Assembly: GCA_026390815.1 (NCBI GenBank)
Contig: JAPLFH010000024.1
Location: 62,001-126,000 of the forward strand
DNA length: 64,000 nt
Origin: Ignavibacteriales bacterium
Lineage (GTDB): Bacteria > Bacteroidota > Ignavibacteria > Ignavibacteriales > SURF-24
Direction of reading: 5' to 3'
Position numbers and translations under genes: made by a program. Below the pieces are notes generated by a model. That model had not been told where the DNA came from. It made no database searches and saw only the letters and a list, made by a program, of their open reading frames with translations. The number at the start of each line of letters is the position of its first letter. Within the stretch, counting starts at the first letter, position 1. Positions 29,210 through 40,082 of this stretch are shown in pieces.

Positions 29210-29281
29210 GAGTTTAGAACGTAGAGTGTAGAACGAAGAATGAAATTTAATTCTTCGTTCTGCACCATGAGTTCTTAGCTC
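29210..29281. repeat. Long imperfect hairpin between hdrA and the ORF6N gene
   Basis: Two 32-base arms (29210-29241 and 29250-29281) match at 25 of 32 positions around an 8-base loop. The inner 11 pairs (GAACGAAGAAT with ATTCTTCGTTC) are perfect. It lies just upstream of the hdrA ribosome-binding site. No strong U-run follows, so a repeat or processing element is more likely than a terminator. Confidence 0.6.
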
Positions 29282-29333
29282 TAATCCTTATACTTTAAAA
29301 ACTTTATTCTGAATCAACAATTTTCTTTTTATT

Positions 29334-29840
29334 CTAGAAACCAATTCTGTTCCTTTCCGGTTCGGGCGGAGTCATTAATTCTTTTAGTATTTCAAATACT
29401 GTAGCAATTTGTTCATCGTGTTTAAAAATTCTGTGCTCTATTTCTTTTAGCTTGGATGCAAATTCTTTATTCGTATCTATCAGCCGTCTTAGACTTATAA
29501 AAGCACGCATAATTTCTATATTTACTTTTATTGCTTTAGAACTCCTTAAAATGCTTGAAAGCATAGCAACGCCTTGTTCGGTAAAAGCAAACGGAGTTGC
29601 GGGGCTGAATTTGTATTTCTTAAGGTTATCACAATTTGTGATAAGCTCATTCCATTCAATTTTATTTAATTGGAATAAAAAATCCGAAGGAAACCGACTT
29701 AGGTTTCTTCTTACAGATTGTTTTAATACGCGATTTTCAACTCCATAAAGCAAGGCAAGATCGAAATCAAGGATTACCTTTTCTGCTCGAATCAGATAAA
29801 TGATTTGGACAATATTTTCTTGCTTTAAAATTTGTTTCAT
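29334..29840 (-). CDS. ORF6N-domain DNA-binding protein
   Basis: This is a 168-aa protein with an ORF6N (KilA-N related) domain at about 10-100. Diagnostic segments are VILDFDLALLYGVENRVLKQ, NLSRFPSDFLFQL, and PFAFTEQGVAMLSSILRS. The C-terminal 60 residues are helical (REIEHRIFKHDEQIATVF-like coil). The domain is known from phages and as scattered single genes in bacterial chromosomes; DNA binding is presumed, target unknown. It lies between hdrB and hdrA, same strand, 42 bases after hdrB, with no functional link to electron transfer. Confidence 0.9.
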   Translation of the reverse strand: MKQILKQENIVQIIYLIRAEKVILDFDLALLYGVENRVLKQSVRRNLSRFPSDFLFQLNKIEWNELITNCDNLKKYKFSPATPFAFTEQGVAMLSSILRSSKAIKVNIEIMRAFISLRRLIDTNKEFASKLKEIEHRIFKHDEQIATVFEILKELMTPPEPERNRIGF

Positions 29841-30755: not shown

Positions 30756-31197
30756 TTATAATCTCCTTTGTTCTTAAGAACTCAGAACACAGAAAACAGA
30801 ATTTTTTTAACGTCTGTTTTTTATATTCCGAATTTTGAATTCTATCTACTTGAATTTTATTCGAATATGAAGCAAGTAGTTTACTTACTTCTTCGATTAA
30901 CACTTCTAACTCAACCGAGAAACCGTAATTTAAATCGTTAGCAAGTATAAGGTAATACCGGCACTCTTCCACAGAACCTTGTGCTATATTCAGAAAACGA
31001 ATTTTATCTTGTTTACCAAATTTTTTAAATCCGTCTGCAATATTTGCCGCAATAGATATAGCTGCTCTACGAAACTGAGAAGTCAGACCATAGACGTCAC
31101 TTTTTGGAAAATTATCTGTAAGCTTATAAACACCAACAACAAACGCATGTGCTTTTTGCCAAACTATCAATTCTTTAAAATTCTTTGCTCCGTTCAT
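30655..31197 (-). CDS. Four-helix-bundle protein (23S rRNA intervening-sequence family), probably with lost stop
   Basis: The first 115 or so residues match the S23/four-helix-bundle family: FKELIVWQKAHAFVVGVYKL, PKSDVYGLTSQFRRAAISIA, NIADGFKKFGKQDKIRFLNI and SVEECRYYLILANDL. These genes occur inside 23S intervening sequences and as scattered single genes, and related proteins assist diversity-generating retroelements. Function is unknown. The frame then runs through its flanking repeat (QNSEYKKQTLKKF) and 101 bases into hdrB, giving a C-terminus with no family resemblance. The natural end is expected near 30840. It sits between hdrC and hdrB on the same strand. Confidence 0.82.
   Translation of the reverse strand: MNGAKNFKELIVWQKAHAFVVGVYKLTDNFPKSDVYGLTSQFRRAAISIAANIADGFKKFGKQDKIRFLNIAQGSVEECRYYLILANDLNYGFSVELEVLIEEVSKLLASYSNKIQVDRIQNSEYKKQTLKKFCFLCSEFLRTKEIINEFWILPWLFCPRNSKRIWYVYACSLQCVQHST
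30785..30803 (-). repeat. Left arm of inverted repeat flanking the four-helix-bundle gene
   Basis: The minus strand reads AATTCTGTTTTCTGTGTTC, matching the plus-strand arm at 31202-31220 at 18 of 19 positions, with 15 identical bases in a row. The element is A/C- or T/G-simple but the match exceeds its background. It lies directly before the hdrB ribosome-binding site and inside the run-on frame of the four-helix-bundle gene. Confidence 0.6.
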
Positions 31198-31201
31198 ACT
31201 T

Positions 31202-31220
31202 AATTCTGTTTTCTGTATTC
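31202..31220 (+). repeat. Right arm of inverted repeat flanking the four-helix-bundle gene
   Basis: AATTCTGTTTTCTGTATTC starts 5 bases beyond the ATG of the four-helix-bundle gene. The partner is at 30785-30803 on the opposite strand. The pair encloses the whole conserved part of that gene, 436 bases end to end. Confidence 0.6.
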
Positions 31221-31239
31221 AGTCTTCTGTTTTCTTTTT

Positions 31240-32324: not shown

Positions 32325-33032
32325 ATGAAATATCGATTAGTTCTTGTCTTTGCACTTTTGTGTTTTGGAGTATCTGCCTGCCAGCAAGGTGAAGTAAAAA
32401 AATCTGATTTGAAAACACAGAAAGATAGCGTGAGTTATTCAATTGGAATTAGCATTGGAAAAAGTTTAAAGAAAGATGCTATTGAAACAGAACCAGCAGT
32501 TCTCTTGCAGGGTATTAAAGATGCCGTTGCAAAAGACAGTCTTTATTTATTAACAGATGCAGAAATGCAAAAAACAATGATGAATCTTCAATCATTAATG
32601 ATGAAAAAACAGATGGAAAAAATGAAAGCAGAAGGTGATAAGAATAAAAAAGAAGGTGATGAATTCCTTGCAAAGAACGGAAAAGAGCAAGGCGTAATAA
32701 CATTACCAAGCGGTTTACAATACAAAGTTCTTCAAACCGGAACAGGTGTACAACCTAAACTTACGGATAAAGTATCCTGCAATTACAAAGGCACTTTATT
32801 AAATGGAACCGAGTTCGACAACTCGATTAAAAGAGGGAAGCCGGCTATATTTGAATGTGGTAAGGTTATTAAAGGATGGACCGAAGCACTTCAAATGATG
32901 CATGTGGGTGATAAGTGGCAATTGTTTATTCCTGGTGCTTTAGCTTATGGCGAACAAGGTGCGGGACAAGGACAGATTCCACCAAATGCTACTTTGATTT
33001 TTGAAGTTGAACTTTTAGGGATTGAAAAATAA
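32325..33032 (+). CDS. FKBP-type peptidyl-prolyl cis-trans isomerase, lipoprotein (Mip/FkpA-like)
   Basis: This 235-aa folding catalyst is exported as a lipoprotein (VSACQQG, Cys19). An FKBP_N dimerisation domain with a long helix occupies about 25-120 (SYSIGISIGKSL, then ADAEMQKTMMNLQSLMMKK-like). The FKBP domain follows at about 125-235 (LPSGLQYKVLQTGTG, VSCNYKGTLLNGTEFDNS, GWTEALQMMHVGDKWQLFIP, PPNATLIFEVELLGI). Conserved active-site aromatic and Asp residues appear present. It has a strong AAGGAG ribosome-binding site and is followed by a long hairpin. Confidence 0.93.
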   Translation: MKYRLVLVFALLCFGVSACQQGEVKKSDLKTQKDSVSYSIGISIGKSLKKDAIETEPAVLLQGIKDAVAKDSLYLLTDAEMQKTMMNLQSLMMKKQMEKMKAEGDKNKKEGDEFLAKNGKEQGVITLPSGLQYKVLQTGTGVQPKLTDKVSCNYKGTLLNGTEFDNSIKRGKPAIFECGKVIKGWTEALQMMHVGDKWQLFIPGALAYGEQGAGQGQIPPNATLIFEVELLGIEK

Positions 33033-33038
33033 CCTAAA

Positions 33039-33070
33039 GACCTTCAAGGTTCTTCAAAACCTTGAAGGTC
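33039..33070 (+). terminator. Perfect 13-bp hairpin after the FKBP gene
   Basis: GACCTTCAAGGTT (33039-33051) and AACCTTGAAGGTC (33058-33070) enclose a 6-base loop, starting 7 bases after the stop codon. The following CTTCTTAAAA is only weakly U-rich, so termination may be partial. Hairpins of this exact type are dispersed in Bacteroidota genomes (family knowledge), so it may be a repeat element as well. Confidence 0.6.
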
Positions 33071-33076
33071 CTTCTT

Positions 33077-33104
33077 AAAATCTATTCCTCAAACATTTTT
33101 CTAA
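33077..33104 (+). repeat. 28-bp direct repeat, copy 1 (duplicate of the asparaginase gene 3' end)
   Basis: Starting AAAATCTATTCCTCAAAC and ending TTTTTCTAA, this segment is identical over 28 bases to 33986-34013. The second copy includes the last 23 bases and the stop codon of the asparaginase gene. The two copies bracket the HEPN/MNT pair. Confidence 0.9.
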
Positions 33105-33215
33105 AATAACCGACTTATTAAAACCCGACAGTATAATTTGGGCATCTAGTTTAATTTGAGAAATAGGAAAAAATCCGTTAATTTAAATCAGCAATTTTGA
33201 AATACAAAAAATAAA

Positions 33216-33617
33216 ATGACAGATAAAATTCGTGGAAGAATTGGGTACTGGTTAGACTTAGCGGAATATGATTTAATTACTGCTGAATCGATGTTAAAGT
33301 CAAAGCGGTACCTTTATGTTGGGTTTATGTGTCACCAGGTTGTTGAAAAAAGTATTAAAGCATTTCACTGGTTTATTCAAAAACAAGAACCTCCGTATAC
33401 GCACAACTTAAACATTCTCTCCTCTAAATCAGGGCTTGATAAAATAAGCGGCTTTAAGAATGAGTTATTACTCGAAGAACTTATGCCGTTAAATATTAAA
33501 GCTCGTTATCCTGATGATAAAACAAGTCTTTTAAAGGAGTTAAATTACAACCGATGCCGGTCTTTACTAAAACAAACCAAAGAGTTTTACGATTGGATAA
33601 AAAAGTTGTTAAAATAG
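33216..33617 (+). CDS. HEPN-domain protein of the second HEPN/MNT pair
   Basis: This is a 133-aa helical HEPN protein (PF05168-like). Supporting segments are LDLAEYDLITAESMLKSKRY, YVGFMCHQVVEKSIKAFHW, the YTHNLNILSS motif and the late IKARYPDDKTSLLKE region. As in the first pair, I see no Rx4-6H motif. It overlaps the downstream MNT gene by 64 bases, so the two are surely co-translated. It lies inside an 881-bp segment between perfect 28-bp direct repeats, suggesting acquisition as a unit. Confidence 0.87.
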   Translation: MTDKIRGRIGYWLDLAEYDLITAESMLKSKRYLYVGFMCHQVVEKSIKAFHWFIQKQEPPYTHNLNILSSKSGLDKISGFKNELLLEELMPLNIKARYPDDKTSLLKELNYNRCRSLLKQTKEFYDWIKKLLK

Positions 33618-33898
33618 CACAAGAATTTTCTCGAATAGTTGTTGAAAATCTTGAGGTTCGATTTGTAATACTTTTTGGCTCTTTTGCCAAGGGAACACAA
33701 AAGGAAGAGAGTGATATAGACATTGCTGTTGTTGTTGAAAAAGCAAATGGCAAATATTTGGATATAAGTACGCTGCTTTTCCATTTAGTGAAAAAAGTGG
33801 ATTTAAGAATTGAACCGTTATTGATTGAGATTGAAAATGACAAGAGTGGTTTTCTTGAAAGTTTATTAAAGAGTGGAAAAATTATTTATAAAAATTAA
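33554..33898 (+). CDS. MNT-type nucleotidyltransferase of the second HEPN/MNT pair
   Basis: This 114-aa minimal nucleotidyltransferase has the catalytic motif ILFGSFAKGTQKEESDIDIA (Gly-Ser plus Asp-x-Asp) at about 38-57 and a late RIEPLLIEIEND with a third candidate acidic residue. Its start overlaps the HEPN gene by 64 bases; a later start would shorten the overlap, but no better ribosome-binding site is obvious. Order is HEPN then MNT, the reverse of the gyrase-locus pair. It probably acts as antitoxin or modifier of its HEPN partner (family inference). Confidence 0.87.
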   Translation: MPVFTKTNQRVLRLDKKVVKIAQEFSRIVVENLEVRFVILFGSFAKGTQKEESDIDIAVVVEKANGKYLDISTLLFHLVKKVDLRIEPLLIEIENDKSGFLESLLKSGKIIYKN

Positions 33899-33985
33899 AA
33901 AAAATTGTCTTGTCTCTTTTCCTTTTCCTGATTAAGATGATAAATATTTGCAAGTATGATCTCTTGTTTATTATAAAGCGAATTG

Positions 33986-34013
33986 AAAATCTATTCCTCA
34001 AACATTTTTCTAA
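33986..34013 (+). repeat. 28-bp direct repeat, copy 2 (native 3' end of the asparaginase gene)
   Basis: This is identical over 28 bases to 33077-33104 in the same orientation. It includes the asparaginase stop codon (33991-33993) and the codons for the tail RKMFEE. This is presumably the original copy, because it belongs to an intact gene. Confidence 0.9.
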
Positions 34014-34965
34014 TCTGATTTATATCTTTTGTTATTCCTAAAACAAGCATCAATTTTATTCTTGCTTTCTGCCCATTTAGATAATCCGAAAAAACAACTC
34101 CCATTTTGTGCAACCATTTTCCAGCACCGGGATAACTGTAAATATCAAGTGTTTCACCAGCCGGGCATCTGGAAACCAAAACAACCGGAATTCCTTTTTC
34201 AACAGCGTATTTAATTCCTTCAAAAGATAACGGTGGTACATTGCCCACACCCATTGCCTCAACAACAATTCCTTCTGTTCCGCTATCAACAGAAAATTTG
34301 AAAAACTTTTCATTCATTCCAGCGTAAACTTTAATCAAATCAACATTGGAATTAATCATTTCCGTTGTAATTGTTTCAAGCTTCCGCGGCATTCGGTTGA
34401 TAAAAACTCTTCCTCTATCAACAAAACCCAGCGCACCAAAATCCAAACTATGGAAAGTTTCTATATTATCCGTGTGAGTTTTAGTAACTTCGCTTGCAGC
34501 ATTTATTTCTCCATTAAGGCATACAAGCACGCCAAGATTTCTGCTGTTTGGATTCAGGCAGGTTTGGATTGCATCTTTTAAATTTCTTGGTCCATCCCAA
34601 TCCGGTTCGGAACTGTTCTTCATCGAACCAATTAGAATTATAGGAATTGGTGTTTGAATTGTAAGGTCGAGTAGATAAGCAGTTTCTTCAAGAGTGTCTG
34701 TTCCGTGGGTTACAATAATTCCATCGTAAGAAGTTTCAATTAAGAATTCCTGAATTTTTTTTGAAAGAGATAACATCAATTCAGGTGTCATATGTGGTCC
34801 CGGGAATTTACCAAAGTCATAGATCGATATATTTGCAAGTGCTTTAATTTCCGGCATCATATCAATTAAATCATTGCCGGAAAAGTGTGGAATAGCTCCA
34901 CCTGTAGTTTCATCAATTTTCATAGAGAAAGTACCGCCGGTAAAAACCACTAATATATTTTTCAT
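33991..34965 (-). CDS. Asparaginase / glutaminase-type L-asparaginase
   Basis: This is a 324-aa amidohydrolase that converts L-asparagine to aspartate and ammonia. The first active-site Thr is in FTGGTFSMKIDE (near residue 12), and the second motif is IIVTHGTDTLEETAYLLDL. Later family segments are ILIGSMKNSSEPDWDGPRNL, HSLDFGALGFVDRGRVFIN and VPVVLVSRCPAGETLDIY-like. I chose ATG 34965; the frame open to 35022 lacks family resemblance. There is no signal peptide, so it is the cytoplasmic type. Its 3' end is duplicated 909 bp away. Confidence 0.9.
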   Translation of the reverse strand: MKNILVVFTGGTFSMKIDETTGGAIPHFSGNDLIDMMPEIKALANISIYDFGKFPGPHMTPELMLSLSKKIQEFLIETSYDGIIVTHGTDTLEETAYLLDLTIQTPIPIILIGSMKNSSEPDWDGPRNLKDAIQTCLNPNSRNLGVLVCLNGEINAASEVTKTHTDNIETFHSLDFGALGFVDRGRVFINRMPRKLETITTEMINSNVDLIKVYAGMNEKFFKFSVDSGTEGIVVEAMGVGNVPPLSFEGIKYAVEKGIPVVLVSRCPAGETLDIYSYPGAGKWLHKMGVVFSDYLNGQKARIKLMLVLGITKDINQIRKMFEE

Positions 34966-35163
34966 TTTATTAGCCTTAGATAAATTGTGCTCAATCTTTT
35001 TCCAGCAATTAAACAATTTCACAACGAAATTTAGTTAATGGCTTTGCTTTCTAAGTGTAAATTAAAACTTTATTGGTTTGAAGTCAAAATGAGATTCAAC
35101 TTTCCTCTTGATTATTAGATAGTATAATGAATAGATTTCCGAAAGTAATTTTTGGAGGTTCAG

Positions 35164-36384: not shown

Positions 36385-36913
36385 TCTGTATCTCCAAAGT
36401 TTATATTGTGTACAGAACCACGGTTAAGACTCCCGGTAAAAAAATCGGGACAGGCTGTAGTTCTCAAGAATAACTTTAGCGAAGCAATATCATCTTTCTT
36501 GTCTCCTAAAAACTTCCGCTTGTAATTTGATAAAAATATAATCCACTTGGTAATTTACTTGCTCCGTCTCTGGCGGAAAATTTAACTTCATACGTTCCGA
36601 CATCTTTATATTCATCTACTAATGTTTATACTTCCTTTCCTAAAACATCATAAACTTTCAGAGTTTGCCTTGTCCTGAAATAAGTTGCCCTGGAAAGAAC
36701 AAAAGGCGCAACAATGTACGAACTCGAAGACTCTTACGCTGATTAACCAATCAAAGGAACATCTATGCGGCTTTGCAAAGGTTTCGTTAATTATTTTCTG
36801 ACCTGTCCGCCCATTGCGGACTCCTTTATTATCGTAATAATCTCCCGATAGATCTGACACGCAGTTACGGTCAGGGAATCCATTTATTTGTTTTTAACCA
36901 CTTATATAGCAAA
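36385..36913. other. Gene-remnant region without intact genes
   Basis: This 529-base stretch holds a T9SS-tail pseudogene (36474-36670, entered separately). It also has a CCCGGTAAAAAAATCGGG inverted repeat near 36432-36449 and about 240 bases (36671-36913) with no recognisable coding content. It lies between the Ntn hydrolase and a truncated esterase. Confidence 0.6.
36474..36670 (-). pseudogene. Remnant of a T9SS type A C-terminal sorting domain
   Basis: The minus strand encodes KDVGTYEVKFSARDG, then SKLPSGLYFYQITSGSF, a TAG stop, then ETRKMILLR and the final stop. A second in-frame stop (TAA) lies upstream, between the GKEV and TLVDEYKDV codons. The segment aligns almost base for base with 38842-39039, the 3' end of the intact T9SS cargo gene. 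No upstream coding part remains. It is the leftover 3' end of a lost secreted protein. Confidence 0.85.
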
Positions 36914-38773: not shown

Positions 38774-38843
38774 GCTCCATCGGCAAATGATTCCGTGGCA
38801 GTAAATATGGATTTACCCCAACAATACTTGTCCACTGAAGCCT

Positions 38844-40082
38844 TTAGCGAAGCAGGATCATCTTTCTTGTCTCCGAAAAACCTCCGCTTGTAATTTGATA
38901 AAAATATAATCCGCTTGGTAATTCACTTGCCCCGTCTCTGGTGGAAAATTCTACTTCATAAGTTCCGGCATCTTTATATTCGTCCAACAATGTTATTACT
39001 TTATTGCCTAAAACATTATAAACTTTCAGAGCTTGCCTGCTGCCAACTGGTGACCACCATCTGATTTTTGTTATTGGATTAAACGGATTCGGATAATTTT
39101 GGTAAAGCTGAATTTCATTTGGCATTTCAGTTTTATTCTCTTTTACGTCAACGGTTGGTCTTAGAGAATTTATTGCATCATCAATCCTTGCCCAATAAAT
39201 ATCTCCTTTTTCCTTTATATCATTATAACGGGAAAAGAAAATATATTTTCCATCCGGCGATAAACTTGAACAACCTTCCCAATAACTTGTATTGATTTGA
39301 CTGCCTAATTTAATTGGAACGCCGAATTTTCCATCAGTCATAATAAATGCTATAAAAATGTCTCCATTGTAATCGAATAAAACCAAATCTTCATCTGGAG
39401 AAATAAACGGATGGTAAGAACCATTTGGTAAGCCAACAGCTTTAATTTCTTTATACTTTCCATCTACCAACTCCGATTTGTAAATTTCCCGAAGTGTAAA
39501 ATTAGTGAAGTACATTGTATTGTTTTTAGAAAGTGTGCTCCAAAAAACACTATAACTATTAATTGGGGAATCACTCATATCTACCGGCGTTGAGTATCCA
39601 TCGGAAGTTTTTTCAACATAAGTGATTTTGGAATCATATTCTCCGACCATGTAAGAAAAAAATACTTTACTGCCATCATATGTATAAAACGCCTCAAACT
39701 CTTCGCTATTGTTTCTTCTTAAATTAGCAACCTTTGGTGTTGACCACGAACCATCTGGTTGTTTATTCATTACCATTAATCCATAACCTGTTCCGCTTGC
39801 AGTATAAAATATTTCTGATAAATCCGGAGATACTGCCAGCCCATATTCATCTCTATCCTTAAGAGTAATGATTCCCTTTCCAAAGATAACTGCATTTGCA
39901 TCCGGTGGATTACCAAAAAGCGTATCATCCTGGGCAAAATTATTTTTGTGGTTTTCTAAATCTTTTTGCAAATCAGTTATTTCATTCCTGTTAAAAGAAA
40001 ATGTGGAATTGGTAAATAACAAAAACAGGACCACTGTTTTTAGCATACTCTCAACAATTACAGGTTGGTAAAATAATTTCAT
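38844..40082 (-). CDS. Secreted PD40/TolB-like beta-propeller protein with T9SS type A sorting domain
   Basis: This is a 412-aa secreted protein. A hydrophobic export signal lies at about 14-32. The middle shows WD40-like PD40 repeats: GLAVSPDLSEIFYTASG, HPFISPDEDLVLFDYNGDIF and CSSLSPDGKYIFFSRYND. The C-terminal 80 residues are a type A T9SS sorting domain: LYQNYPNPFNPITKIRW, ALKVYNVLGNKVITLLDEYK and LPSGLYFYQITSGGFSETRK. It should therefore leave the cell through the type IX system. I prefer the ATG at 40082 (GAGAG upstream) over 40049. Substrate or partner unknown. Confidence 0.87.
   Translation of the reverse strand: MKLFYQPVIVESMLKTVVLFLLFTNSTFSFNRNEITDLQKDLENHKNNFAQDDTLFGNPPDANAVIFGKGIITLKDRDEYGLAVSPDLSEIFYTASGTGYGLMVMNKQPDGSWSTPKVANLRRNNSEEFEAFYTYDGSKVFFSYMVGEYDSKITYVEKTSDGYSTPVDMSDSPINSYSVFWSTLSKNNTMYFTNFTLREIYKSELVDGKYKEIKAVGLPNGSYHPFISPDEDLVLFDYNGDIFIAFIMTDGKFGVPIKLGSQINTSYWEGCSSLSPDGKYIFFSRYNDIKEKGDIYWARIDDAINSLRPTVDVKENKTEMPNEIQLYQNYPNPFNPITKIRWWSPVGSRQALKVYNVLGNKVITLLDEYKDAGTYEVEFSTRDGASELPSGLYFYQITSGGFSETRKMILLR

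Follow-up and report, generated by a model that had tools for sequence, protein, structure and literature searches.

The asparaginase gene of an Ignavibacteriales bacterium carries a two-gene insertion at its 3′ end. In the window, the 64,000-nucleotide stretch of DNA analysed here, a HEPN-domain gene and a minimal nucleotidyltransferase (MNT) gene now separate the genes for asparaginase and an FKBP-type peptidyl-prolyl isomerase, which were originally direct convergent neighbours. The scar of this insertion is genuine, and its empty site is clear. The HEPN/MNT pair is probably a horizontally acquired module that entered the asparaginase 3′ end in an ancestor, with no dedicated recombinase involved. 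This is a mechanism of the ordinary recombination type and not a new mobile element.

The FKBP-asparaginase junction

The window sequence displays an exact 28 bp direct repeat that brackets the two genes. The features of the junction are as follows.

32325-33032, + strand: FKBP-type peptidyl-prolyl isomerase gene (Pfam), the ancestral convergent neighbour of asparaginase
33039-33070, no strand assigned: hairpin ACCTTCAAGGTT...AACCTTGAAGGT, the terminator shared by FKBP and the displaced asparaginase end
33077-33104, - strand: left repeat copy, the displaced original 3′ end of asparaginase, with terminator and FKBP adjoining as in empty sites; it holds the last 23 nt of asparaginase, with the stop as CTA at 33082-33084 (+ strand), plus 5 nt
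33105-33985, no strand assigned: inserted segment, 881 bp between the repeat copies, absent in G002, G003 and G004
33216-33617, + strand: HEPN-domain gene, 133 aa, PF05168, HEPN-T type
33554-33898, + strand: MNT gene, open reading frame of 114 aa, PF18765/PF01909, overlapping the HEPN gene
33986-34013, - strand: right repeat copy, the present 3′ end of the intact asparaginase gene
33991-35022, - strand: asparaginase, the target gene, PF00710 and PF17763

The right copy consists of the last 23 nt of asparaginase including the stop, with 5 nt beyond, and the left copy lies outside any gene, with the HEPN gene on one side and the FKBP terminator hairpin on the other. The asparaginase and FKBP identities are confirmed by Pfam. 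HEPN and MNT are the sole genes of the 881 bp insert according to the open reading frame list and Pfam, and no integrase or transposase reading frame is found within it. No inverted repeat bounds the insert among the 25 longest listed. The sequence-only reading had described the two identical copies in the same orientation, their relation to the asparaginase stop and the FKBP hairpin, and the content of the interval, and it was accurate on each.

Allowing up to 3 mismatches, a search of the whole 4.52-Mb assembly finds the 28-mer exactly twice and a reversed control pattern not at all. With just these two copies it is not a dispersed repeat, and the suspicion that it might be a genome-wide sequence does not hold. 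As a chance control, the left flank of one HEPN locus was compared with the right flank of another. An exact match of at least 18 bp appeared in 2 of 802 comparisons and the longest was 22 bp, so the 28 bp repeat is far beyond chance.

Of 59 related genomes, 58 have an asparaginase gene. Four other genomes belong to the same family, and in three of these (G002, G003 and G004) the convergent FKBP and asparaginase genes are separated by 62-77 bp, with no insertion; the closest relatives' asparaginase shares at most 83% protein identity, and the empty site is thereby known at the level of genes and not base by base. The gap in these three genomes holds a terminator hairpin. Joining the window flanks with the insert removed leaves an FKBP-asparaginase gap of 49 bp. 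Because the FKBP-side 28-mer is directly adjoined by the terminator and then the FKBP stop, it is the gene's original end, now displaced. Among the asparaginase neighbourhoods examined, none but the window's holds the HEPN/MNT pair. The empty site that had been proposed as a check on the insertion therefore exists in relatives, and the contrary picture, in which all relatives carry the pair at this place without the repeat, is not what they display. Insertion at the asparaginase 3′ end is supported. What stands of the earlier idea of an integration at a gene end is the reconstituted end; its suggestion of an att-like or fixed boundary is not supported.

The fourth same-family relative, G001, has a different 200-aa open reading frame at the FKBP-asparaginase junction (L039), with a terminator motif on both sides. 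The 15 bp repeat found there is this terminator motif and has other matches in the genome, and for this reason the junction is ambiguous and is not counted as a second clean insertion.

Several other features are found near the locus. At 30777-31228, a 23S-IVP (PF05635) gene lies between hdrC and hdrB and has the arms of a 27-nt inverted repeat on its two sides (30777-30803 and 31202-31228, 85% complementary). The family has 15 matches in the window's genome, and this gene is at the same place in G001. At 29210-29840, an ORF6N-domain gene that adjoins a 72-nt palindrome (29210-29281) lies between hdrA and hdrB; it is absent there in G001. A 159-nt direct repeat of 89% identity is present at 36474-36632 and 38842-39000, 2.4 kb apart. 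The second copy encodes the C-terminal tail of a 414-aa protein and the first is in no listed open reading frame; this is possibly another displaced gene end, or a paralogous tail.

The HEPN/MNT cargo

The two neighbouring, overlapping open reading frames have family matches, the HEPN gene to PF05168 (Pfam, E 3e-20) and the MNT gene to Polbeta/NTP_transf_2 (Pfam, E 3e-16). The MNT sequence has an intact GSF...DID motif and weakly resembles the solved Mnt antitoxin 5yep (E 0.0015). The HEPN sequence displays ARYPDDK in the place of the Rx4-6H motif and has no H at that spacing, but a conserved H is present in PPYTHNL. In PF05168 members the H is often replaced by D while another position holds a conserved H, and Rx4-6H is not required (PMC3710099); the window HEPN is a known variant. 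By inference from the families, HEPN is a predicted toxin and MNT a predicted antitoxin that modifies it.

The pair is similar to HEPN/MNT toxin-antitoxin modules (PMC7641770, PMC11586414, PMC3710099) in its paired, overlapping HEPN and minimal nucleotidyltransferase genes and in the likeness of its MNT to the solved antitoxin. It differs in the HEPN-T type without the Rx4-6H spacing and in gene order, HEPN being first and MNT second, the reverse of the usual order in PMC3710099. Relatives of the HEPN were not found in phages or viral contigs and are nearly absent from plasmids, with one weak plasmid match.

Flanking repeats at other loci

HEPN/MNT loci were collected from 146 relatives, and a survey that took a single genome for each species added its 80 best matches. 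Repeats were sought by blastn between 800 bp flanks at E 1e-5, with the same test for all sets; the control was a set of 255 randomly chosen gene units, taken from 400 kb of sequence of the same order. Direct repeats bracket 17/67 HEPN/MNT pairs in the same order and 23/76 elsewhere (best survey matches), compared with 3/255 random units (Fisher p 1e-16). These HEPN counts drop by about two when duplicates are considered, since L063 and L158, whose results are identical, probably represent a single locus, and L125 and L126 look like one shared insertion. The repeats around related loci are 20-334 bp long and 72-100% identical, and the inserts start at 688 bp with a median of 919 bp.

By a strict criterion, a repeat edge within 25 nt of the stop of a module-facing gene, 10 of 42 flanked HEPN loci are at gene ends, and 2 are at gene starts; a tRNA-Lys 3′ end is used in one further case. 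Most of the other repeats, about 30 of the 42, are intergenic or unassigned, and some of them could be dispersed repeats. Examples of the gene ends used are those of yajC, an lptG-like gene and a legC-like gene (presumptive names, assigned by eye from the sequences), a 481-aa gene and a tRNA-Lys gene. At the tRNA locus (L202, 1029-2191), the HEPN/MNT pair lies directly behind the tRNA-Lys gene and a 56 bp copy of the tRNA 3′ end is found on the far side. The 481-aa gene is in the window's own genome (L119, contig C9), where a second HEPN/MNT pair is bracketed by a 68 bp repeat (98.5%) of the gene's 3′ end. The last residues of this gene differ from those of the G001 ortholog, and the displaced tail resembles the ortholog in length. 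Two cases with T9SS tails (L177, L180) may be paralogous ends.

The sequence-only reading had suggested that the repeat might be a defined mobile boundary for a HEPN/MNT unit. This part of it is not supported, as related pairs sit in different genes with repeats that differ in sequence and length, and unrelated accessory genes carry the same kind of flank. Flanking repeats were detected around 7/27 VapC, 5/30 ParE and 3/28 23S-IVP genes and around 9/29 genes of AAA_14, a non-toxin ATPase. Since VapC, ParE and the ATPase are flanked likewise, the repeats are not specific to HEPN/MNT or to toxin-antitoxin genes. A toxin-antitoxin-specific cause, with addiction protecting the duplication from loss, was rejected on the AAA_14 rate, which is the same.

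Routes of insertion and known systems

Comparison of diverged copies with sister species offers a view of where the second gene end comes from. In G050, a genome of a different genus in another family of the same order, the 3′-terminal 92 bp of asparaginase are present twice, 1137 bp apart and with 91% identity. The insert has two open reading frames, which we take, from their sequences alone, to be lipocalin-like and DNA-glycosylase-like. The cargo thus differs from HEPN/MNT. Whether the 28-mer accompanies other cargo had also been asked: the 28-mer itself does not, in the genome or in viral contigs, but the asparaginase end has been struck in another genus with a different cargo. In a sister species of G050 (G093, 95% protein identity) the site is empty and its terminator matches. 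At the 10 sites that differ between the G050 copies, the alignment shows G093 sharing 6 with the displaced copy, 3 with the intact gene's tail and 1 with neither; the intact tail carries six changes that read as foreign to the lineage. By this reading, the displaced copy is native and the intact gene's tail came in with the insert. An lptG-like case in G050 agrees with an imported end: at 6 sites the sister has the bases of the displaced copy, and at 2 those of the intact gene's tail.

A different history is read from an AAA_14 gene at the ychF 3′ end in G020 (L393), with a 168 bp duplication of 95.8% identity. Here the intact copy is the ancestral, native one and the displaced copy has decayed, which is duplication followed by decay and not import. 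Both import and duplication of gene ends seem to occur. Polarisation of L151 was set aside, because the insertion is also present in one sister and the outgroups conflict, and for L126 no usable ortholog was found in the sister genomes.

Mismatches between copies fall at codon positions 1/2/3 in the numbers 41/31/92 (13 gene-end cases pooled, the ychF case left out). The bias to position 3 (92/164) has p 3e-9, and p 0.001 against a decay-only expectation of 44%, which is our rough estimate. Displaced copies in the gene-end cases are mostly in frame, with similar protein sequence and the stop present. Together, the bias and the preserved frames suggest that some copies diverged as functional genes before they came together.

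In the favoured reading of the window, insertion without a recombinase, the incoming DNA would join on one side by homologous pairing within the asparaginase 3′ end. The other side might close by Campbell-type crossing over, the module arriving as a circle that carries a piece of the gene end, or the joining there might be illegitimate (homology-facilitated illegitimate recombination). What the locus itself shows is the outcome: the asparaginase end that was there first has been pushed to the far side of the module together with the terminator and FKBP, to which it is still joined, and the intact gene carries a second copy of that end.

The nearest rival belongs to the same class and differs solely in the origin of the second copy: in a pure target duplication, a 28 bp staggered break in the asparaginase end would be filled in around a captured fragment. 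This has a substantial chance of being correct, though somewhat below even. The window copies are identical, those of L119 and L060 are 98-99% identical, and the ychF case has its native intact copy and decayed displaced one. The class is also described for restriction-modification systems (PMC3874152, PMC3031569). It is opposed by the two G050 cases decided by a sister species, which show an imported, diverged end. In the window, homologous import and target duplication cannot be separated because the two 28 bp copies are identical.

Integrases enter the 3′ ends of tRNA or protein genes, as in elements at icd. As in the present cases, incoming DNA rebuilds the target 3′ end, sometimes with synonymous differences, and the icd elements carry diverged gene ends. 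On this view the 28-mer might serve as att core, and the module might be either a small integrative element or what is left of a larger one, with the integrase acting in trans; the reconstituted asparaginase end and the related pair at the tRNA-Lys 3′ end are in keeping with this. Site-specific integration is nevertheless unlikely. The insert has no integrase, and related modules use different genes and repeats of very different length, with no constant att core and no constant target. Insert sizes are concentrated close to the minimum that the pair needs, a distribution that serial decay of large islands would not give. The near absence of HEPN relatives from plasmids, and the failure to find any in phages or viral contigs, also count against it. 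As a phage att site specifically, the 28-mer was rejected, since it is present in no viral contig.

An unseen transposase that makes a long target-site duplication would account for compact cargo bracketed by direct repeats, but such transposition is very improbable given a duplication length that is not constant between loci and an insert with neither a transposase nor, among the 25 longest listed, a bounding inverted repeat. An assembly artefact joining two strain variants is barely credible: the assembly is in 59 contigs, but its completeness is 99.96% and its contamination 0.39%, and the same pattern is found in many independent assemblies with diverged copies.

The locus, with its empty site and direct duplication, fits a class already described. 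Restriction-modification genes insert with long, variable target duplications (Nobusato et al., 2000; Furuta et al., 2010; work of Kobayashi and colleagues, reviewed in PMC3874152 and cited in PMC3031569 and PMC1643837). The likeness is a small module of selfish type without its own recombinase, flanked by long target duplications of variable length. The differences are that the cargo here is HEPN/MNT, and elsewhere VapC, ParE, AAA_14 and others; that some repeats end at gene stop codons; and that in two cases the second copy is a diverged gene end of imported origin. For Vibrio cholerae T6SS effector-immunity modules that displace older gene parts, homology-facilitated illegitimate recombination was proposed by Kirchberger et al. 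(PMC5361080). The likeness to that proposal lies in an old gene part displaced downstream of the new module and, on the presumed mechanism, in homologous anchoring at one junction with non-homologous joining at the second. There, effector genes are replaced at dedicated loci, whereas here a housekeeping gene keeps its full frame and a short end is displaced. No report of such an insertion for HEPN/MNT pairs was found in the literature searched, which covered few subscription papers.

Toxin-antitoxin pairs and small accessory genes are patchily distributed, and their movement without a transposon or integrase is rarely seen. Flanking copies of a gene end form a readable scar by which the empty site is identified, and copies that differ reveal an imported end. 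With a roughly 20-fold excess of scars around accessory modules compared with random genes, the route is measurable across genomes. The scars point to ordinary recombination as a way in which small genes move, and a mechanism known from restriction-modification genes is extended to other cargo. A more speculative and rather doubtful proposal is that small accessory modules in these bacteria travel as recombinase-free cassettes, with a short stretch from the 3′ end of a neighbouring gene as their address. By homologous pairing with this gene in a new host, the module would be inserted, the gene would receive the imported end and the native end would be displaced. If this were true, it would be a general route of acquisition and would explain the positions of a sizeable fraction of accessory genes in several phyla. 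The broader pattern of flanking gene-end scars is worth a dedicated survey.
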